Source of the DNA: a virus
DNA: 39,935 nucleotides
IMG/VR virus record: IMGVR_UViG_3300030103_001777
Location: 436-40,370 of that record
Direction: 5' to 3' (one strand)
Position 1 is the first letter of the stretch, and each line of letters opens with the position of its first letter. Below the pieces are notes generated by a model, which was not told the origin of the DNA, searched no databases, and saw only the letters and a list, made by a program, of their open reading frames with translations. The translations under genes were made by a program, and so were the position numbers. This document shows, piece by piece, positions 2,663 to 35,148 of the stretch.

Positions 2663-5600
2663 ATGGGAACAACGTATACTAGACAATCCTCTTATAGTGA
2701 CGGAGATGTAATAACCGCAGCTCATACTAATGATGAGTTTAATCAATTACTTGCAGCGTTTCAGGCTGCCACAGGACATACACACGATGGCACAGCCAAC
2801 GAAGGTGGTCCTATTACAAAGTTGCTTGGCACTTCAATTACAGTAGGTGATGCCACTACAGGAACAGATATAACAGTTACATTTGATGGTGAAACTTCTG
2901 ATGGTGTTTTAATATGGAGAGAAGACGAAGATTATTTTGAATTTAGTGATGACATACTTATTGCTTCTACAGAGAAGTTACAATTTAGAGATACAGGCAT
3001 ACACATCAGTTCAACTACCGATGGACAATTAGATGTAGTAACAGATGGTGCATTTGTTGTTGACACTGCAGGTGATATTACTTTAGATGCAGATGGTGGA
3101 GATATTGTACTTAAAGATGGTGGAACGCAGTTTGCTTCTCTTACAAATACTAGTGGTGATTTAATAATTAAATCAGGCAGTACAACTGCTATGACTTTTA
3201 GTGGTGCTAATGTTACTTTTGCAGGAACAGTTACAATAGGCTCTGCAGGTATATCAGAAGCAGAGCTTGAGATACTTGATGGTGCTACAGTAACAACTGA
3301 TGAGTTGAACATACTTGATGGAGTAACCTCAACTGCATCAGAGTTAAATTTAGTTGATGGTTCATCTGCAGGTACAATCGTAAATAGTAAAGCAGTTATA
3401 TATGGTTCTAGTGGAGAAGTAAATGCAACGACATTACAAATAGCAGGAACTTCTATTACATCTACTGCAGCAGAAATTAACATTTTAGATGGGGTAACAT
3501 CTACTGCAGCAGAGTTGAATATATTAGACGGAGTCACTTCTACTGCAGCAGAATTAAATATATTAGACGGAGTAACCTCCACTGCTACTGAATTAAATAT
3601 AGTAGATGGTGATACTTCTGCAACATCAACTACACTTGCAGATGCAGATAGAGTTGTTGTTAATGACAATGGAACAATGGTTCAGGTTGCATTAACTGAC
3701 TTTGAAACTTATTTTGAATCTGCACTAGATACATTATCAAATGTAACAACAGTAGGTGCATTAAATAGTGGTTCTATTACTTCAGGTTTTGGAACTATTG
3801 ATACAGGTTCATCTACCATAACGACTACAGGTTTAATTACAGGTGGCTCATTAGATATTGATGATGTTGTTATAAATGGAACTACAATAGGTCACACAGA
3901 TGACACAGATTTAATTACACTTGCAAATGGAATTGCTACAGTGGCAGGTGAACTATCTGTAACTACTCTTGATATTGGTGGTACAAATGTAACGTCAACT
4001 GCTTCAGAACTAAACATATTAGATGGTGTTACTGCTACTGCCTCAGAACTAAACATACTAGATGGTGTTACTGCTACTGCATCCGAGTTAAATATCTTGG
4101 ATGGTGTAACATCAACTGCTTCAGAATTAAATATTCTTGATGGAGTAACTTCTACTGCAAGTGAAATTAATTTATTAGATGGCTCTTCTAAATCTACATC
4201 CTCTATAACTATAGCTGATGCAGATGCTTTTATTATTATTGATGACACTACTACAAAACAAATACCTGCTTCAGATATAGCCAATTATGTGGGTACATCT
4301 ATAACAGCAACAGGTGCTTTAGATGGTGGTTCTATTACATCAGGCTTTGGTAACATTGATAATGGAACATCTAACATTACATCAGGTGGTCTTCTTAAAA
4401 TTGATACAGATGCAGATGCAGACGATTTAACAGGAGACAGTTCTTCAGGTAGATTAACAATAGGTGCAGGTGAAGACTTAAACTTATATCATGGTGGAAC
4501 TAACTCTTACATTGTAAACGACACAGGTGATTTAATAATTGATACTGCAGGGGATGTTGTTCTAGACGCAGATGGTGCAGATGTATTATTAAAAGATGGT
4601 GGAACACAGTATGCTGCTCTAACTAATTCTTCAGGTAACTTAATTATCAAGTCAGGTTCTACAACTGCATTAACATTCTCAGGAGCTAATGCAACACTTG
4701 CAGGTGACTTGACCATATCAGGTGATGACTTGACTATGGGTACAAACACTGCAGGTCATTTACTTATAGCAGATGGTACGAACTATAATCCTACGGCAGT
4801 CGGTGATTTAGCAGAAATATCTACAGTTGCAAGTGGTGATACATTGTTAGCAGTTGATGCTTCTGGTGGTGGATTAAAGAAAATAACAAGAAGTACCCTT
4901 GTTGCAGGTCTTGCAGTATCAGGTGCTATATCAAATGTGGCAGATGATAGCACACCACAACTAGGTGGTAACTTAGACATGAATGGCAACGATATTGTTA
5001 CCACTTCAAATGCTAATATTGAACTTGCTGCAAATGGAACAGGAAAGGTAGTTGTAAAAGGTAATAATAATCAGGGAGCTATACAATTAAACTGTGAAGC
5101 AAACTCACACGGACAGATTATAATAGCTGCCCCACATTCAGAGAGTGCATCTAATACCTTAACACTACCAAGCACAGGTGGTGACGCTAGATTAGTTTCA
5201 ACATCGTCAACTGCCACACTAACAAATAAAACATTTGGTGATAACACTAGCTTTGGTGATAATAATATTACTAATGTTGGAGATATTGCACTTGACTCTA
5301 TAAGTGCAGATGGAACAGATATTAATGTAGCAGTGTCTGATAACTCTGCAACTGCTTTTACAATCAAACAAGGCTCAGATAATTATTTAGTTGTAGATAC
5401 AGGTAATGGTGGTGAATCAGTAGCTATTGGTACAGGTGTATCAGGAACTGCTATAACACTAGGACACAGTACATCTGAAGTAACTGTAGCAGATAACTTA
5501 ACTGTTACAGGTGACCTTACAGTATCAGGTACAACCACTACAGTAAACTCAACAACAGTAAATTTAAATGACCACAATATTGTATTAGATAGTGGTAATA

Positions 5601-7984
5601 GTACAAGTGCAGTAATAAATGGTGCAGGTATAACTATTGAAGGTGGTAGTGGAGATGACGCTAAACTTAATTACAATACAACAGGTCCTAAGTTTGAATT
5701 ATTATTAGGTTCTAGCCACGAAGATTTACAAGTAGACCAACTTATTGCAGCTTCCTTAGATATATCAGGTAACGTAGATATAGATGGCACTTTAGAAACA
5801 GATGCATTATCTATAAATGGAACATCAGTTACTGCTAGTGCTGCAGATATTAACTTAATAGATGGCATTACAAACGGAACTGTAATAGCAAGTAAAGCTA
5901 TCATAACTGATTCTAACAAAGACATATCAGGTGGTAGAAATATTACAATTTCAGGTGAACTTGACGCAGCTACCTTAGACATTAGTGGTAATGCAGACAT
6001 AGATGGTACACTTGAAGCAGATGCAATCACAGTAGGTGGCACTGCATTAAACACTGTTATAGCAGGTGTTACTGTTACTGATGCTACCAATGCTGCTCAC
6101 GTATTAGTTACAGATAACGAAAGCCAAAACGAAGATAATCTAATTACTTTTGTAGAAGGTGCAACTTCTAGCACAGGTAATGTTGGATTAGAGATGGATG
6201 GTAACTTAACTTACAATCCAAGCACAGGAAGATTAACTGCTACACAATTAGCAGGTACATTACAAACTGCTGCACAGACAAACATTACATCATTAGGAAC
6301 ACTAACATCATTAACAGTAGATGATATTACTATTAATGGTAGCACTATATCTGATAGTGGGTCTTTTACACTAGACGTTGGTGGAGTTATAAATTTTGAT
6401 TCTAGTGATGGTCAGTTTAGATTTGATGATGACGGAACAGAGGTATTTAGAATTGCTAATTCATCTGGTGATGTAATCCTTAGACCTGTTGTTGATGCTA
6501 AAGATATAATTTTTCAACAGAGAGATGGCACTGAAGTAGCAAGAGTTGAAGACAATGGCACATTCAATGTTGTTACAGACAAACTTGCTATAAACGGAAC
6601 AGCGATTACATCCACTGCTGCAGAGTTAAATATTCTTGACGGAGTAACCTCTACCACTGCAGAGTTGAATATTTTAGATGGGGTGACCTCCACTGCTACA
6701 GAGTTAAACATACTTGATGGAGTAACTGCTACAACAGCAGAACTAAATATTCTTGATGGTGCTACAGTAGTAGTAGGAGAGATAAATGCACTAGATTTAG
6801 GCTCAACTGCTGTTGGTACTGCCATAGCTTCTAAAGCAGTCATACTTGACTCTAATAAAGATTACACAGGAATAAGAAACTTTACCATTACAGGTGAACT
6901 TGATGCTGCCACTTTAGATGTAAGTGGTGATGTAGATATAGACGGAACTCTTGAAGCAGATGCCATAACTCTTAATGGTACATCATTAGCTACTTCGGCA
7001 ACAACAGATACTACTAACGCTTCTAACATTGGTTCAGGCACATTGGGTGCAGCTAGAATGGCTTCTGCTCAAACTGCTATAGAGTCTGTTCTTAATACTA
7101 GCTTAGTTGCAGGTAGAGATGCAGACAATCAAATAAAGTTTAGCACAGACAATCAAATTATATTTAGAGTTGGTGCAGGAGATGGTGTAACATTTAAAGC
7201 TAGTGGCGAGATAGAAGCAACAAGTTTAGATATTAGTGGTGACGCTGATATTGATGGAACATTAGAAGCAGACGCTATAACTGTAAATGGAACAGCATTA
7301 GATGAGTTTATCTCTGATACTACAGGTGCTATGTTCTCTAGTAATACAGAGACAGGTGTTACTGTTACTTATCAAGACTCTGATAATACTATAGATGTTG
7401 CAATAGATGCAGCACAAACAACTATTACATCTCTTCTTGCTACCGACATAAAGATTGGTGAAGATGACCAAACTAAGATAGACTTTGAAACTGCAGATGA
7501 GATACACTTCTACGCTGCAAACGCAGAGCAAGTATTTGTATCTGACGGAGTATTTGGACCTCAGACAGATAGTGATGTTGACTTAGGTACAAACAGTGCT
7601 AGATTTAAAGATGCGTATGTTGACAGTGTAACTGTTACAGGTGACGTAGCAGTTGGAGATGATGCTTCCGTAGCAGGTAGAGCAACAGGTAACCAAGAGA
7701 CAGATAATGATGGTAACTTTGATTTAGCAACTGCTAACTTCTTTAAGTGTACTCCATCAGGTAACTTTACTTTAACTTTATCCAATCCTGCAGAAGGTCA
7801 GTCAGGAACAATTATGCTAATTAACACTGGGGGTCATACAGTATCTGCTCACGCTAGTGTTGCTATAAATGCAGATATTTTAACAGCAATATCTTCAGCA
7901 GGAACATATATGCTTACTTATTATTGTTCTGCTGCAAGTGGTAATGATACAATACTAGTAGGTGCAACAGGAGCTTTAACATAA
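2663..7984 (+). CDS. Giant tail fibre protein with repeated LDG modules
   Basis: At 1773 residues this is the longest gene here. It begins with no gap after the hub gene. The N-terminal 60 residues (with DGDVITAAHTNDEFNQL) resemble virion-anchoring ends of marine phage fibres. The rest is repetitive beta-structure. There are four clusters of a 14-residue unit close to TSTAAELNILDGV, four copies of a module ending in D(I/V)DGTLEADA, and two copies of a longer block with DLIIKSGSTTA. Such repeats form trimeric, elongated fibres. The protein is almost free of Cys and very rich in Thr, Ser, Asp and Gly. No intramolecular chaperone (S74 peptidase) domain is apparent at the C-terminus, which ends in an ordinary beta-rich stretch. 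Receptor binding is expected but not shown. Confidence 0.85.
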   Translation: MGTTYTRQSSYSDGDVITAAHTNDEFNQLLAAFQAATGHTHDGTANEGGPITKLLGTSITVGDATTGTDITVTFDGETSDGVLIWREDEDYFEFSDDILIASTEKLQFRDTGIHISSTTDGQLDVVTDGAFVVDTAGDITLDADGGDIVLKDGGTQFASLTNTSGDLIIKSGSTTAMTFSGANVTFAGTVTIGSAGISEAELEILDGATVTTDELNILDGVTSTASELNLVDGSSAGTIVNSKAVIYGSSGEVNATTLQIAGTSITSTAAEINILDGVTSTAAELNILDGVTSTAAELNILDGVTSTATELNIVDGDTSATSTTLADADRVVVNDNGTMVQVALTDFETYFESALDTLSNVTTVGALNSGSITSGFGTIDTGSSTITTTGLITGGSLDIDDVVINGTTIGHTDDTDLITLANGIATVAGELSVTTLDIGGTNVTSTASELNILDGVTATASELNILDGVTATASELNILDGVTSTASELNILDGVTSTASEINLLDGSSKSTSSITIADADAFIIIDDTTTKQIPASDIANYVGTSITATGALDGGSITSGFGNIDNGTSNITSGGLLKIDTDADADDLTGDSSSGRLTIGAGEDLNLYHGGTNSYIVNDTGDLIIDTAGDVVLDADGADVLLKDGGTQYAALTNSSGNLIIKSGSTTALTFSGANATLAGDLTISGDDLTMGTNTAGHLLIADGTNYNPTAVGDLAEISTVASGDTLLAVDASGGGLKKITRSTLVAGLAVSGAISNVADDSTPQLGGNLDMNGNDIVTTSNANIELAANGTGKVVVKGNNNQGAIQLNCEANSHGQIIIAAPHSESASNTLTLPSTGGDARLVSTSSTATLTNKTFGDNTSFGDNNITNVGDIALDSISADGTDINVAVSDNSATAFTIKQGSDNYLVVDTGNGGESVAIGTGVSGTAITLGHSTSEVTVADNLTVTGDLTVSGTTTTVNSTTVNLNDHNIVLDSGNSTSAVINGAGITIEGGSGDDAKLNYNTTGPKFELLLGSSHEDLQVDQLIAASLDISGNVDIDGTLETDALSINGTSVTASAADINLIDGITNGTVIASKAIITDSNKDISGGRNITISGELDAATLDISGNADIDGTLEADAITVGGTALNTVIAGVTVTDATNAAHVLVTDNESQNEDNLITFVEGATSSTGNVGLEMDGNLTYNPSTGRLTATQLAGTLQTAAQTNITSLGTLTSLTVDDITINGSTISDSGSFTLDVGGVINFDSSDGQFRFDDDGTEVFRIANSSGDVILRPVVDAKDIIFQQRDGTEVARVEDNGTFNVVTDKLAINGTAITSTAAELNILDGVTSTTAELNILDGVTSTATELNILDGVTATTAELNILDGATVVVGEINALDLGSTAVGTAIASKAVILDSNKDYTGIRNFTITGELDAATLDVSGDVDIDGTLEADAITLNGTSLATSATTDTTNASNIGSGTLGAARMASAQTAIESVLNTSLVAGRDADNQIKFSTDNQIIFRVGAGDGVTFKASGEIEATSLDISGDADIDGTLEADAITVNGTALDEFISDTTGAMFSSNTETGVTVTYQDSDNTIDVAIDAAQTTITSLLATDIKIGEDDQTKIDFETADEIHFYAANAEQVFVSDGVFGPQTDSDVDLGTNSARFKDAYVDSVTVTGDVAVGDDASVAGRATGNQETDNDGNFDLATANFFKCTPSGNFTLTLSNPAEGQSGTIMLINTGGHTVSAHASVAINADILTAISSAGTYMLTYYCSAASGNDTILVGATGALT
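3257..3361 (+). repeat. Fibre repeat cluster 1 (three 42-bp units)
   Basis: Three in-frame copies of the 14-codon unit encode versions of ELNILDGVTSTAS. The DNA copies differ at many synonymous sites, so the unit is conserved as protein rather than by recent duplication. Confidence 0.75.
3450..3609 (+). repeat. Fibre repeat cluster 2 (four 42-bp units)
   Basis: Four consecutive copies encode TSTAAELNILDGV-type units. Units two to four share long nearly identical DNA runs (for example ATATTAGACGGAGT). This points to newer duplication or gene conversion here than in cluster 1. Confidence 0.8.
3989..4181 (+). repeat. Fibre repeat cluster 3 (five 42-bp units)
   Basis: Five copies encode T(S/A)TASELNILDGV units, ending in a divergent EINLLDGSS copy. 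The Ser variant at the tenth position separates this cluster from cluster 2, whose units mostly read AAE. Confidence 0.8.
6605..6762 (+). repeat. Fibre repeat cluster 4 (four 42-bp units)
   Basis: Four copies encode TST(A/T)(A/T)ELNILDGV units about 2.4 kb from cluster 3. The intervening fibre sequence carries different modules, so the LDG units recur as discrete segments along the fibre. Confidence 0.8.
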
Positions 7985-16013: not shown

Positions 16014-19000
16014 ATGTTAGAAAATGAAAATATTAAACTTGATGAAAAAACAAAAAACGAAACTCTACAAAGTTTGAGGAATATTTTTTCTGAAGAAGAA
16101 GATAATATTAATGAAACTCCTACCTTAAAAGAGCAGACAGATTCTCTATTAGAAAAAAATAATGAAGTAGAGGTTAATCTGCCTGAATCTAAGCTCTTTA
16201 TTCCAGTAAAACCATTACCTAGAAAAAAGATTGAAGACCCATATAAGACACCTGAGGGTTTAGAAAAGCTATCTTATAACCTCCTTGATAGAAAAGATGT
16301 GAATAAAAAAAATTTAATGAGCAATGCAGATTGGGAGGCAGATGCAATTTATTTTTTAAAAATGAGGGGTGGCTATACAGACAAAGAATTAGACACAAAA
16401 GAAAAAATATGGAATGCATATGCAGAGCATTTTAGATACTATGATGTGGCTAATGAAATAACTCTTGGGTATGATTATGACTATTTATTAGAAGAAAAAG
16501 ACCCTGAAGCTAGAAAATTTAGAACAAATGTATATGGCAGACTACTAGACTCTTGGGAGAAATTTGCAGGAGAAGATATGTCTTTCAGAAAAACACAGGA
16601 CTACTTTGGTGGTGTTGCAACTTCTCCATCTACTATAATATCTGTAGGTGCTGCAACTTTTGCTAGAAGACCTGATTTAACAGTAGCTTCTAGTCTTGCA
16701 GGTAAGGCAGTAAAAAACAAAATAACAACTTACCTAAAACAATTTCTTAAAAAAGGTGCATTAGCAGCTACATATGAAGCTCCCTTTGCTGTAGCTCAGA
16801 GTGTAGGAAAAGAAGATATAAGACAAAAAATAATTAAAGAAGATTTTAGACCTAGTGTGGTTGCGATAGAAACAGGGTTACAAATAGGTGGAGGTTTTCT
16901 TCTTGGTGGAGGTGGCTCTGTAATTGAAACTAGAGCACTATCTAAGGCAAATAAATTAAATGAAAGATATACAAATGCAAAGTTAAAATTGTCACAAAAT
17001 GCTAAAATAAAAACAGACGAGTATTTAAAAAAATTTGGAATTAATAATCCAAAATACAAAAGAATATCTAAGCAATTAGAGGCTTTAAATCCTGAACAAA
17101 CTTCTTTAGGAAGAGAGTATAGAAAAAATCTCAAGCCGGGACAAGATGGATTTATAGGAAGTTTACCTGTAGATTTTCACAAGAGTCTTGCTGTCGCTGC
17201 ATTAAAAATGACAGACTTATTAAAGCTAGGACCTAAGGAAAGAATAACAACAGGTTTACACAGAGCCTTAACAGAGGGTGTTCTTCAAGAGGATGGCACA
17301 TACAAACTATTAGAAGTGGATTCTATACAAAAAATATTACAAGACCACAATTTAAGTTTAGATGAATTTGGATTAATATTTTTAAGTGATGTGTCTGATG
17401 CTGCTAAAACACTTCAGTCATACAGTCAGCTAGGAAAAATATATAAAGCTAAAGACGCAGAAAGAGGTATTGATGCACTTAACACTCAGTTAAATGGTTT
17501 AATTAATGGTGGATATGCTTCTTTTCCACAAGATGTTGCTTTAGAAGTAGCACAAAATACTAAAAAAAGTGCTAAATATGTTAAAAACTTTTTTATGAAT
17601 TTGGATAGAGCTAAATTAGGCTTTATGACCTCACAGCCTTCTACAACGATAAGAAATAATATTAACAGTGTTTTTAGAGTAGGAGTTGATTTAGTCAATC
17701 GTTCTATAAATGAAGTGCTTCATGGAAGAAACCCATTTAAGGCTGATACAGGAGCTTTTGTAAAGTATATGTTTAGACCTGCAGAGGCTAGAGTTTTTAG
17801 AGAAATATACAAAGATGCCTTTCCTGAGTCAGGTGCTATGTTATTTAGAGAAATGGCAGATGTTACTAATACTGTTTCAGGGGACACTAATGCTAAAGGT
17901 ATAAGTGGAGTTTTATCTCGTTTTGGCACAAAGTTAAATATACTAAACACTGTATCAGATAACTATATAAAGCAAGGAGCATTGATAACTTTTTTAAGAA
18001 GAAACATAAGTGAGTTACCAAAAGATAAAAAATTAAAAATAATAGATATTGATAAAGAAACTTTACTTGCTCAAAAATTAGTTGATACAAAACAATATCC
18101 AAACACAGAGGCAGCAGAAGCATTCATAGAATCTCTTAGTCCCAATGGATTTAAGGATGCATTAAAGGCAAATAAAATACCTGAGTTTCATGATTTCTTT
18201 ACCATATTATCTACAGGAAGATTAAAAGAAATACCTAAAGATGTTATAGATAGGTCTGTTCAAGAAACTTATGAGTTTGTTTATCAGGCTAATTTTAAGG
18301 GAGATGGATATTTACAAAAATTCAGTAGACTTACCAATAAGGCACACAAAGAAGTTCCTTTTGTAATATCTAGTTTTTTACCTTTCCCTCGTTATACAGC
18401 TAATCATTTAAAAACTGTGCATGAATATATGCCTCTTCTTAATTTACTTAACTTTGGCAATATGGGCAGTAAAAAATTAGATAAAGAAGGTTATGGATTT
18501 ATAGCAAAACCTCTTAAAACTACTGTAGACGCAGCAACATATTTAAAAACTTTAGGTAAAAAAGGAGACATGAAGCCTTTTATGAAGGATATAGCAAAAG
18601 GCACAACAGGAACTTTATTGTTACTAGGGTGCTTAGAATGGAGATACAGGCAAGGCAACACAAATCATTGGTGGGAGATAAAAGCAGGTGCTGATAAAGT
18701 TATAGATGGTAGACCTATTTATGGTGCTTTAGCTCCTTATATGTTAGCTAGTGATTTAATATATAGATATCATACAAATACATTACCGGGAGACACAGGT
18801 TTAAGTTATTCTCAGTATTCTAAAGATGCTGCTCAGGCACTTATAGGGGTTACTCTAAGAAGAGGTATGGGATTAATGTTCTTAGATGACTTCATACAAC
18901 TATTCACAGAAAACGATGAACGTATGAATAGAAATATGGTATATGAATTTTTTGGTAATGTTGGTCAGCAGTTTATGATACCTGCACAGCCTGTAAAATA

Positions 19001-20072
19001 TATGTTGTCTATAGAAGATGAGAGTCAAAGAATAATACCCAATCAAGACGGAAAGGTTAATTTCCTAGATTTATTTTTATCAAGAGCATTGCGTGGAACA
19101 CCTGATATAAAAGGAGTAGATGTGTCTGGTGCTGTGGAAGAAAAAGTTCTACCTTCTGTAAATTTTAGTTTAGAAAAAACAGATGCCGATGGTAACAAGA
19201 GCTTTTCTCCAAACTTTGAATATGAAGCAGGTAGTGGAAAAATAAGGTGGGAAAGACTATGGACTAATAGTAAAAATGATATAAGTGCTTCTTTTGAGAT
19301 TCAAGAACCTGCAATAGATATATTTAAAGGACCATTAGAAGTAGATTCTCCTATTAGTAGATTAATTGGTACAAGTAAACGTAAAGCTAAAAACTTATTT
19401 GAAAAAGAAATAGCTATACTAAACATACCTAGATATGAAATTTATAGAACAGATTATCAAAATCCTGAAATAGAAACAGAGGCTAAGAGACTATTAGGTT
19501 CTCCTGATAGTGAATACAATTTAGAAACTAGGATTGGAAAGTTTTTAATAAGCTCTGACTATACAAAGTTTTTAAAAAGAGAAGAAGAAACAGTTACCAA
19601 GTCTCCTTTATCTATAATAAATCTTGGTGTTACAGCACCTGTTCAGGTTTCTCCTGCACAAAGAACAAGAGCAATCATAACAAAAGCAAAACAATATATT
19701 GCTGAAGCTAAGTCTTTAGCAGAATCAAGACTAGAGAAATTTGTGCCAAAGGGAATGCCTTACAACCTTACTACATTAAAAAAATGGCAGAAGTTAACTG
19801 ATTTCAAAACTGTGTTAGCAAACGAGTTATACAGTCAACAACGTAATACAATACAAAAAGATGGTAGTAAAGCTGTTACTGTTTATGATATAGACAAAAA
19901 TATAATAACTCCTACAAATGTATGGAATGACAGAGAGTATTTTATTGTAAAAGGACCTTTGACAGAAGAATCTTGGAATAAAAGAAATGGTGTTTTAGAA
20001 GAGTATATAGAACAAGTAGAAAACTTTTCTAAGCAATTTAAATCAAAGCCAGTTGGAGGAAAGAGAAAGTAA
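16014..20072 (+). CDS. Very large internal virion / DNA-ejection-type protein
   Basis: This 1352-residue protein is preceded by an AGGA site. Its length and place at the end of the virion block match the largest ejectosome proteins of podoviruses (T7 gp16 is about 1320 residues). The N-terminal 100 residues are acidic and probably disordered. Residues about 290-303 form a Gly-rich hydrophobic patch, and another hydrophobic stretch lies near 860-875 (TGTLLLLGCLEW), followed by Trp- and Tyr-rich sequence. I find no lytic transglycosylase motif like the one in T7 gp16, so similarity is in size and position only. Its TAA overlaps the ATG of the next gene. Confidence 0.6.
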   Translation: MLENENIKLDEKTKNETLQSLRNIFSEEEDNINETPTLKEQTDSLLEKNNEVEVNLPESKLFIPVKPLPRKKIEDPYKTPEGLEKLSYNLLDRKDVNKKNLMSNADWEADAIYFLKMRGGYTDKELDTKEKIWNAYAEHFRYYDVANEITLGYDYDYLLEEKDPEARKFRTNVYGRLLDSWEKFAGEDMSFRKTQDYFGGVATSPSTIISVGAATFARRPDLTVASSLAGKAVKNKITTYLKQFLKKGALAATYEAPFAVAQSVGKEDIRQKIIKEDFRPSVVAIETGLQIGGGFLLGGGGSVIETRALSKANKLNERYTNAKLKLSQNAKIKTDEYLKKFGINNPKYKRISKQLEALNPEQTSLGREYRKNLKPGQDGFIGSLPVDFHKSLAVAALKMTDLLKLGPKERITTGLHRALTEGVLQEDGTYKLLEVDSIQKILQDHNLSLDEFGLIFLSDVSDAAKTLQSYSQLGKIYKAKDAERGIDALNTQLNGLINGGYASFPQDVALEVAQNTKKSAKYVKNFFMNLDRAKLGFMTSQPSTTIRNNINSVFRVGVDLVNRSINEVLHGRNPFKADTGAFVKYMFRPAEARVFREIYKDAFPESGAMLFREMADVTNTVSGDTNAKGISGVLSRFGTKLNILNTVSDNYIKQGALITFLRRNISELPKDKKLKIIDIDKETLLAQKLVDTKQYPNTEAAEAFIESLSPNGFKDALKANKIPEFHDFFTILSTGRLKEIPKDVIDRSVQETYEFVYQANFKGDGYLQKFSRLTNKAHKEVPFVISSFLPFPRYTANHLKTVHEYMPLLNLLNFGNMGSKKLDKEGYGFIAKPLKTTVDAATYLKTLGKKGDMKPFMKDIAKGTTGTLLLLGCLEWRYRQGNTNHWWEIKAGADKVIDGRPIYGALAPYMLASDLIYRYHTNTLPGDTGLSYSQYSKDAAQALIGVTLRRGMGLMFLDDFIQLFTENDERMNRNMVYEFFGNVGQQFMIPAQPVKYMLSIEDESQRIIPNQDGKVNFLDLFLSRALRGTPDIKGVDVSGAVEEKVLPSVNFSLEKTDADGNKSFSPNFEYEAGSGKIRWERLWTNSKNDISASFEIQEPAIDIFKGPLEVDSPISRLIGTSKRKAKNLFEKEIAILNIPRYEIYRTDYQNPEIETEAKRLLGSPDSEYNLETRIGKFLISSDYTKFLKREEETVTKSPLSIINLGVTAPVQVSPAQRTRAIITKAKQYIAEAKSLAESRLEKFVPKGMPYNLTTLKKWQKLTDFKTVLANELYSQQRNTIQKDGSKAVTVYDIDKNIITPTNVWNDREYFIVKGPLTEESWNKRNGVLEEYIEQVENFSKQFKSKPVGGKRK

Positions 20073-33382: not shown

Positions 33383-33975
33383 TACTCATCTCCTTTCTTT
33401 GTATCTATATAAATTCTTATGTGTGATGACTCATTTAGGTTCTGTCCATAGGCAGTTCTTCCTTGTCCTTTGAGTTCATCCTTGATGTGTTGACCTTTTA
33501 CTCTCAATGTATATGACCCTCTATTAAGATACTTCTTACAAGTGTCTACAAACTCTTGACCTTCTGTGTCATTAGGTATCTCAGAGAATATATATCTCCA
33601 TCCTTGAGTGTAACAATCTCTAGCATATGCTTTTCTCCACCTGTGTTCTTCCTTAGACCACTTATCTATCAGTTCCTCTTTTTCTTCAATAATATCGTTA
33701 AGAGTTTCTACTTGGCTACGAAGTCCGTTGATAATGCTATCTTTAGCTTTAATAACATCAACAATCCTACCCTCTTGGGTATCGTTTCTAATGTCCTCGT
33801 CATTTTGTTTTACAAATGCTCTGACTAAATGTTGAAAGTCCATCTCAGAAATAGATATGTATTCATCCTTAGATTGTGAGTAATAGTACTTCTCATCTAA
33901 GTCATACATATCACTTGCTACTCGACCTGTGTCATTGATAGCACTAATTATTTTTAATATTTTTTTAACTTGCAT
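33382..33975 (-). CDS. Coiled-coil hypothetical protein downstream of the methyltransferase
   Basis: I place the start at the ATG at 33975 (MQVKKILKIISAINDTG), which has TAGGAG eight bases before it. The frame remains open to 34062, but that extension lies inside the methyltransferase gene. The 197-residue protein has a helical head, a coiled coil around the segment QVETLNDIIEEKEELIDKW and a C-terminal part with EGQEFVDTCKKYLNRG. No family is recognised. It shares 11 bases with the end of the methyltransferase gene, so the two are probably made together. Whether it has anything to do with DNA modification is unknown. Confidence 0.65.
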   Translation of the reverse strand: MQVKKILKIISAINDTGRVASDMYDLDEKYYYSQSKDEYISISEMDFQHLVRAFVKQNDEDIRNDTQEGRIVDVIKAKDSIINGLRSQVETLNDIIEEKEELIDKWSKEEHRWRKAYARDCYTQGWRYIFSEIPNDTEGQEFVDTCKKYLNRGSYTLRVKGQHIKDELKGQGRTAYGQNLNESSHIRIYIDTKKGDE

Positions 33976-35095
33976 TGTTATTTCTCCTATTAAGTTCTTG
34001 GTTAAATGCTTGTTGAAATCCACTATAACCATCAAAGCATGATACAATGGATTCAAATTCATGTAAAGGTAAGTCTTTAATTATATGACTAATCGTAGGA
34101 ATATTAAATCCATTGCCTAACATTTTGTATCGTTGTGTCTTTGATACATGATTAGTATAATTATCAGGTAAACCTTGTAATCTCTCACACTCTAATGGTG
34201 TTAGCTTTCTCCATGTCATACCTTTTACAAGTACATTATCCTTTTGTACTGTCGTTAAACAATTTGTTTTATCATCTTGTCTGACCTCGATTTGTGTTGT
34301 AAATGGTAAGTCTAGTTGATTATCTTTTCTTGTACCATTTTCATCTAATCTTCTATTGACAATGCGACCACCTTTAGTTGAATAAGTAGCAACCTTAGGT
34401 TCTCTATTGCCACCTTGCATCGTTAGTAGTGTAGGTGATTTTCCCTCTTGATGATATACTCTCTTGGCTTGTTCATGTTTGTAGTGTGCATACTCTTCAG
34501 CATGACCTACTTCAATACAACCTACCATAGTTCGTTGTTTTCTTTGTATGCTATTCCACCAAACTGCACCATTGTATGTGGCAGTAAGGCAATGTGATTT
34601 ACCATTAGCATTAGTCATCTCTTTACAAGCTATGCCATCCTCTTCTAGGATGTCCTGTAAGACTATTTGTTTATCTTCTATATCAGAATCTATAGGGAAG
34701 TTTGTCCAATATAATCTCTTTCTATTTTGTGCAGTAAATTGACTAGAGTTTAACATCAATGGTTGTACACCTAGATAACTAGATATTACATCTTGATATT
34801 CTTTTTTCATTACGACATTTTCTAGTAGAAAGTATTTAGGTTTAAGTTTATCTCTTAGTCTGACAAACTCAAAGAATAGTTTACTTCTCTCATCAGCAAA
34901 GTTTAGTTGTTTTCCTGCAAAACTAAATCCTTGACATGGTGAGCCACCTACTAGCATATCAGTTGATTGTTGCCAATTATGTGGTTGGATATCTTGTACA
35001 TCTCCTAACTGTATTGTGTTAGGAAAGTTTGCTTGTGTTACCTTGATTGGATATTTATCAATCTCACTAGCATAGTATTTTACATTGTGTTGCAT
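33965..35095 (-). CDS. Circularly permuted DNA cytosine-5 methyltransferase
   Basis: This 376-residue protein transfers a methyl group from S-adenosylmethionine to C5 of cytosine in DNA. Catalytic motif IV (GGSPCQGFSF, C54), motif VI (LLENVVMKK, E92), motif VIII (QNRKRLYW, 123-130), a target recognition region (about 150-290), motif IX (LTPLECERLQGLP, 298-310) and motif X (GNGFNIPT, 327-334) are all present. The AdoMet-binding motif I, normally at residues 1-15 of such enzymes, is instead the C-terminal VSCFDGYSGFQQAF (351-364). The protein starts with YYASEIDKYP, the strand that normally follows motif I. The ATG has AGGAG eight bases ahead and its own consensus promoter, so this is not a mis-called start. 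It may protect phage DNA from host restriction. Confidence 0.9.
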   Translation of the reverse strand: MQHNVKYYASEIDKYPIKVTQANFPNTIQLGDVQDIQPHNWQQSTDMLVGGSPCQGFSFAGKQLNFADERSKLFFEFVRLRDKLKPKYFLLENVVMKKEYQDVISSYLGVQPLMLNSSQFTAQNRKRLYWTNFPIDSDIEDKQIVLQDILEEDGIACKEMTNANGKSHCLTATYNGAVWWNSIQRKQRTMVGCIEVGHAEEYAHYKHEQAKRVYHQEGKSPTLLTMQGGNREPKVATYSTKGGRIVNRRLDENGTRKDNQLDLPFTTQIEVRQDDKTNCLTTVQKDNVLVKGMTWRKLTPLECERLQGLPDNYTNHVSKTQRYKMLGNGFNIPTISHIIKDLPLHEFESIVSCFDGYSGFQQAFNQELNRRNNNAS

Positions 35096-35107
35096 TGTAG
35101 TTTCTCC

Positions 35108-35118
35108 TAGTTATATAA
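35108..35118 (-). repeat. Early leader element TTATATAACTA, copy 1
   Basis: An exact 11-base copy 12 bases before the methyltransferase start codon. It lies just downstream of the -10 hexamer, so it would form the first part of the transcript. See the related copies near 35.7, 36.5, 36.8, 38.1 and 39.7 kb. Confidence 0.75.
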
Positions 35119-35120
35119 AT

Positions 35121-35148
35121 ATAATACATTGTTTTATTTTGTTGTCAA
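35121..35148 (-). promoter_or_regulatory. Promoter of the methyltransferase operon
   Basis: On the - strand TTGACA (35143-35148) is followed by 16 bases and TATTAT (35121-35126). The -35 begins one base after the stop codon of the upstream small gene. The 11-base leader element TTATATAACTA (35108-35118) and an AGGAG site follow before the ATG at 35095. This is the clearest copy of the early-gene promoter arrangement. Confidence 0.8.

Follow-up and report, generated by a model that had tools for sequence, protein, structure and literature searches.

A marine phage C5-cytosine DNA methyltransferase with motif I relocated to the C-terminus

In the beta-class N6/N4 amino-methyltransferases, motif I is located C-terminal to the catalytic motif, but these enzymes differ from C5 enzymes in their chemistry, in their catalytic motif (DPPY/SPPY) and in the position of the break. 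For the C5-cytosine methyltransferases, a survey from 2018 covered 20,677 REBASE enzymes and found 27 with motif X before motif I, all of them broken in the variable region (PMC5944983). For nearly every topology an active permutant has been engineered, while only one topology was seen in nature, and the most active artificial type, broken between motifs II and III, seems to be absent from nature (PMC5944983). The authors proposed that a break in the AdoMet-binding half may lower the affinity for the cofactor, and that integrity of the domains is favoured. Two of the engineered enzymes, cp35M.MpeI and cp33M.SssI, show activity in vivo, with cp35M.MpeI being poorly soluble (PMC5944983); these laboratory constructs probably have their break before motif II, as in the enzyme described here. 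In the plant DRM enzymes the break lies between motifs V and VI, so that motifs VI-X precede motifs I-V (PMC2965745).

We analysed a stretch of 39,935 nt of viral DNA (IMG/VR record IMGVR_UViG_3300030103_001777, positions 436 to 40,370), referred to as the window. Its phage is HMO-2011-like, with a DNA polymerase and an RNR that are 63.8% and 74.6% identical to those of HMO-2011. The window encodes a C5-methyltransferase whose chain starts between motifs I and II and carries motif I close to the C-terminus. We favour the reading, with a probability of roughly 0.85, that in this HMO-2011-like marine phage enzyme the first beta-alpha unit has left the N-terminus and now follows motif X, that the usual fold is rebuilt in cis, and that the gene arose from an ordinary gene at the same locus.

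Gene organization and motif order

The features of the locus are as follows:

35121..35148, minus strand: sigma-70-like promoter match TTGACA-16-TATTAT, an 11/12 consensus match only
35104..35108, minus strand: Shine-Dalgarno sequence AGGAG preceding the ATG at 35093-35095, read from the sequence
33965..35095, minus strand: permuted C5-cytosine DNA methyltransferase gene, 376 aa, motif order II-IV-VI-VIII-TRD-IX-X-I
35057..35080, minus strand: motif II strand KYYASEID, the new N-terminus, residues 6-13; acidic E11 invariant
34922..34948, minus strand: motif IV GGSPCQGFS, residues 50-58; catalytic C54, the same in every permuted homologue
34814..34831, minus strand: motif VI FLLENV, residues 89-94
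34715..34729, minus strand: motif VIII QNRKR, residues 123-127
34220..34693, minus strand: variable/target recognition region (TRD), residues about 135-292; swapped between lineages, model confidence low in parts
34175..34210, minus strand: motif IX RKLTPLECERLQ, residues 296-307
34079..34132, minus strand: motif X RYKMLGNGF and the next helix, residues 322-339
34001..34048, minus strand: motif I IVSCFDGYSGFQQAFN in its new place, residues 350-365, comprising strand beta1 and the first part of helix alphaA
33968..34000, minus strand: terminal tail QELNRRNNNAS, residues 366-376

The ORF of 376 aa is uninterrupted and begins at the motif II strand, and the FxGxxG of motif I (FDGYSGF, residues 354-360) is found near its end. 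The protein matched PF00145 with 155.2 bits (cut-off 22; E 3.6e-45) over residues 7-342, corresponding to profile positions 25-322 of 324. Since the match begins only at profile position 25, motif I is absent from the N-terminus. C54 (IV), E92 (VI), R125/R127 (VIII), R296/E302 (IX) and G327/N328 (X) are invariant among the permuted homologues.

This order differs from that of the known natural permutants. Type H enzymes such as M.BssHII and M.Alw26I (PMC5944983) also have motif X before motif I, but they begin within the variable region, between motif VIII and the TRD, with IX-X before I-VIII; in the window enzyme the N-terminus precedes motif II and motifs II-VIII come first. Compared to plant DRM, a eukaryotic enzyme with UBA domains, motifs IV and VI of the window enzyme precede the TRD, and only the X-I junction is common to both. 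An ordinary DNMT3-like/Dcm-type enzyme with the same domain is gp10 of the cultured Roseobacter phage CRP-603 (PF00145, TIGR00675), which is 46% identical to the window enzyme. It is encoded upstream of the integrase, a locus as in HMO-2011-like phages, but has its motif I at the N-terminus. No paper describing a break between motifs I and II was found in the open-access literature searched, which agrees with the remark in the initial annotation that it knew of no description of this break point in a free-standing phage enzyme.

A ribosome binding site and an own promoter had also been assigned to the gene. The AGGAG was confirmed, while sigma-70-like sites such as the 11/12 match are barely commoner than expected from shuffled sequence. 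At the other end of the gene (33965-33990, minus strand), the last methyltransferase codons hold the Shine-Dalgarno sequence and the start codon of the next gene, an overlap that suggests translational coupling. Relatives with NNNKENV tails have the same overlap with the start signals of the next gene. Elsewhere in the window, a 1352-aa ORF (16014-20072, plus strand) had no match in Pfam or PHROGs, and a 1773-aa ORF (2663-7984, plus strand) had none in Pfam.

Relatives and origin of the rearrangement

A metagenome search for the same order, as advised in the initial annotation, retrieved about 30 viral contigs, with 19 distinct full-length proteins of the permuted kind. These relatives come from many metagenomes and show 51-100% identity. 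Two DNA patterns for motif I identified 31 stretches, all of which are 3′ ends of permuted-type genes; some of these contigs end inside the gene, and the N-terminus was checked only where the contig spans it. Among bacterial genome contigs, none of 22 relatives has a C-terminal motif I, and no isolate with the I/II break was among the matches listed for a phage collection. The matches listed for a viral structure library were ordinary C5-methyltransferases and, as judged from the list as a whole, gave no hint of the permuted order.

The permuted proteins form two clades that are about 54% identical to each other: clade ABC (window, L002, L006-L010, L028) and clade D (L011-L013, L048, L052, L053). 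Within motif I, residues F354, D355, G356, S358, Q361 and A363 are invariant between the clades, as are C54, E92, R125, R127, E302, G327, N328, E11 and D32 elsewhere in the protein. The dN/dS values for motif I were 0-0.46, and synonymous changes occur in the FDGYSG codons. Our data demonstrate that the permuted order is under purifying selection, and the ORF, the frame and the position of the break, after motif I and ahead of the motif II strand, are as first described. Variable regions are exchanged throughout the methyltransferase family. One relative (L006:3001-4158) is a mosaic with respect to the window gene, being 77% identical in motifs II-VIII and 100% identical in motifs IX-X and motif I, a pattern indicating exchange inside the gene.

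In related phages, ordinary enzymes occupy the same locus upstream of the integrase and primase genes. The closest ordinary relatives on viral contigs are found at this locus, are 60-70% identical and have motif I at the N-terminus. In the permuted proteins L028 and L007, motif I is followed by the tails EWVEMYNNNKENV and DNPIWDERWTK, which are the C-terminal tails of the ordinary enzymes L033/L041 and L042; the correspondence between L028 and L033 also holds at the DNA level. These tail sequences were not found in any other genes of the loci concerned. Thus, the beta1-alphaA segment stands between motif X and the ancestral C-terminal tail, which argues for relocation of this segment rather than for clean end-joining. 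The order fits a circular permutant in the strict sense, with the old termini joined, new ones created elsewhere and no remnant, but in L028 and L007 the old C-terminal tail comes after motif I. From these sequences, the event was probably a relocation of beta1-alphaA by duplication plus deletions and not a clean circular permutation. It had further been stated that joining of the ends restores the normal order nearly without a gap. The order is indeed restored, but the distance from the motif I Phe to YYASE is 29 residues in the window enzyme versus 20 in the ordinary enzyme L021 and 23 in L011 of clade D, owing to the C-terminal tail that comes after motif I. The tail of the window enzyme is unrelated to both tail types of its relatives.

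The most likely course of events is that the 5′ segment of an ordinary gene at the same locus, or the whole gene, was duplicated and that subsequent deletions left the old C-terminal tail behind. The retained tail offers insight into how permutations come about. Other phages have pairs of tandem C5-methyltransferase genes (L018, L021, L026), and such pairs are presumably where permutation by duplication began. In a relative of clade D, the 3′ end that bears motif I is directly repeated; in L013/L231 and L237 (contig 3300029787_000464), this end of the permuted gene recurs directly downstream, along with part of the ORF that follows. Together, the tandem genes and this direct repeat reveal that raw material for duplication exists. 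Among 207 loci, no gene carried motif I at both ends, as an intermediate would. In L022 (2700-3060), motif I (ILSLFDGISCGQIALNRAGI) is separated from motif II (YSSYYACEID) by an in-frame stop codon placed exactly between the two, representing a split gene, a pseudogene or recoding.

It is an evenly balanced question whether the two permuted clades go back to two separate events or to one. In a tree built on motifs II-VIII and IX-X, clades ABC and D were each supported with 100/100, and the best tree placed clade D apart from the window clade. In motifs IX-X, clade D shares 55-57% identity with ordinary enzymes but only 42% with the window enzyme, which also speaks for two events. On the other hand, clade D sits on a long branch, and a single origin of both clades was not rejected (p-AU 0.168).

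Predicted structure and the signal for motif I

AlphaFold (AF2) models of the window protein and of L011 were made from shallow alignments. For the window protein, the model has a strand at residues 349-353 and a helix at 359-375, with a pLDDT of about 75-93 for this block and a pTM of 0.70. The model of L011 has a strand at 366-370 and a helix at 376-383 (pLDDT 86-95, pTM 0.73). Confidence was poor for the variable region/TRD. In both models the C-terminal strand-helix is the expected beta1-alphaA unit. The best Foldseek matches were M.HhaI and DNMT3B; Foldseek is order-dependent and gives no score for the rotated fold.

In plant DRM (DRM2, 4onj), motif X is connected to motif I by a short linker, and the IX-X-I stretch of the window protein aligns in one piece to DRM2 and the plant DRM catalytic domains (4onj, 7l4c). 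A phmmer search of the PDB with the L011 junction alone gave no matches. The continuous X-I junction in plant DRM, together with the confidently modelled strand-helix, suggests that motif I folds back in cis. About nine linker residues would bring motif I from the motif X helix into the central sheet, and the new chain ends would fall into the alphaA-beta2 loop. In this way the usual fold and the AdoMet pocket would be rebuilt, with the motif I segment predicted to dock at the pocket.

A short flexible segment at the end of a chain could also swap between subunits, so that the C-terminal motif I would complete the AdoMet site of a second subunit. We consider such a swapped dimer unlikely, since the solved catalytic domains of plant DRM have an unbroken chain across the X-I junction and the monomer models give the motif I segment high local confidence.

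To judge the C-terminal motif I against chance, we used an HMM that was trained solely on the N-terminal segments of ordinary relatives (65 distinct). The tails of the permuted proteins scored 15.3-31.3 bits and that of the window 15.9 bits. In 20,000 shuffles per tail, the best scores were 9.0 bits (window tail) and 13.1 bits (L011 tail), and tails of unpermuted relatives reached at most 3.8 bits. When all six frames of the window were scanned, the sole motif I was at residues 355-364 (E 0.0099; next best E 3.2); no motif I was found at the N-terminus or upstream in any frame of the window, nor within the 400 bp that precede the permuted genes. When the tail was put ahead of the rest, a rotation proposed in the initial annotation, the PF00145 match widened to profile positions 3-322. 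The score of the rotated sequence was 157.1 versus 155.2 bits for the window protein and 122.9 versus 114.3 bits for L011.

These results also bear on the idea of a degenerate enzyme that lost its N-terminal motif I and whose tail likeness is decaying or coincidental. The motif I of the window is among the weakest and most diverged of the permuted set, as would be expected from decay. However, motif I is kept in all 19 distinct proteins and in both clades, it is under purifying selection, the catalytic residues are all invariant, and shuffled tails never score as high, making degeneration very improbable. There is practically no chance that an assembly error fused two tandem methyltransferase genes of the kind known from other phages, since the identical structure recurs in independent contigs at 51-100% identity, the ORFs are complete with both ends and the record of the window has a single PF00145 gene. 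The same contigs exclude a frameshift or a wrong start as cause of the order, as the initial annotation had maintained on the basis of the clean reading frame, and refute the mis-assembled tandem gene that it had raised as a caveat.

Putative function and a second permuted family

In line with the preferred reading of a relocated beta1-alphaA unit working in cis, the conserved motifs suggest that the free-standing C5-methyltransferase is probably active. No restriction-modification or defence partner was recognised among nine flanking ORFs, which points to an orphan methyltransferase directed against host restriction. By analogy, the enzyme may methylate a target sequence in phage DNA and so allow the phage to evade restriction by the host.

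In phages, C5-methyltransferases probably occur naturally in at least two topologies unseen by the 2018 REBASE survey: the I/II break, which possibly evolved twice, and a III/IV break as in phage nd4. Both breaks lie inside the AdoMet-binding half, and the proposed rule of intact domains would therefore not hold in phages. The phage permutants are natural counter-examples to these proposals (PMC5944983) and have close ordinary relatives at the same locus, so that the hypothesis of a cost in cofactor affinity becomes directly testable.

Proteins of the nd4 type (L239:1981-3657, phage nd4, OR777945.1; L241, L242-L279) start at motif IV (MIKILIGGSPC) and have motifs I-III after motif X (VVLSMYDGIGTG...YYAYEID...). 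In L240 (MT835543.1) the nd4-like III/IV order is present, with the frame broken near motif X in an unverified record. The nd4 type was observed in about 35 viral loci, some of them from gut samples, and the copy in nd4 itself is annotated as hypothetical.
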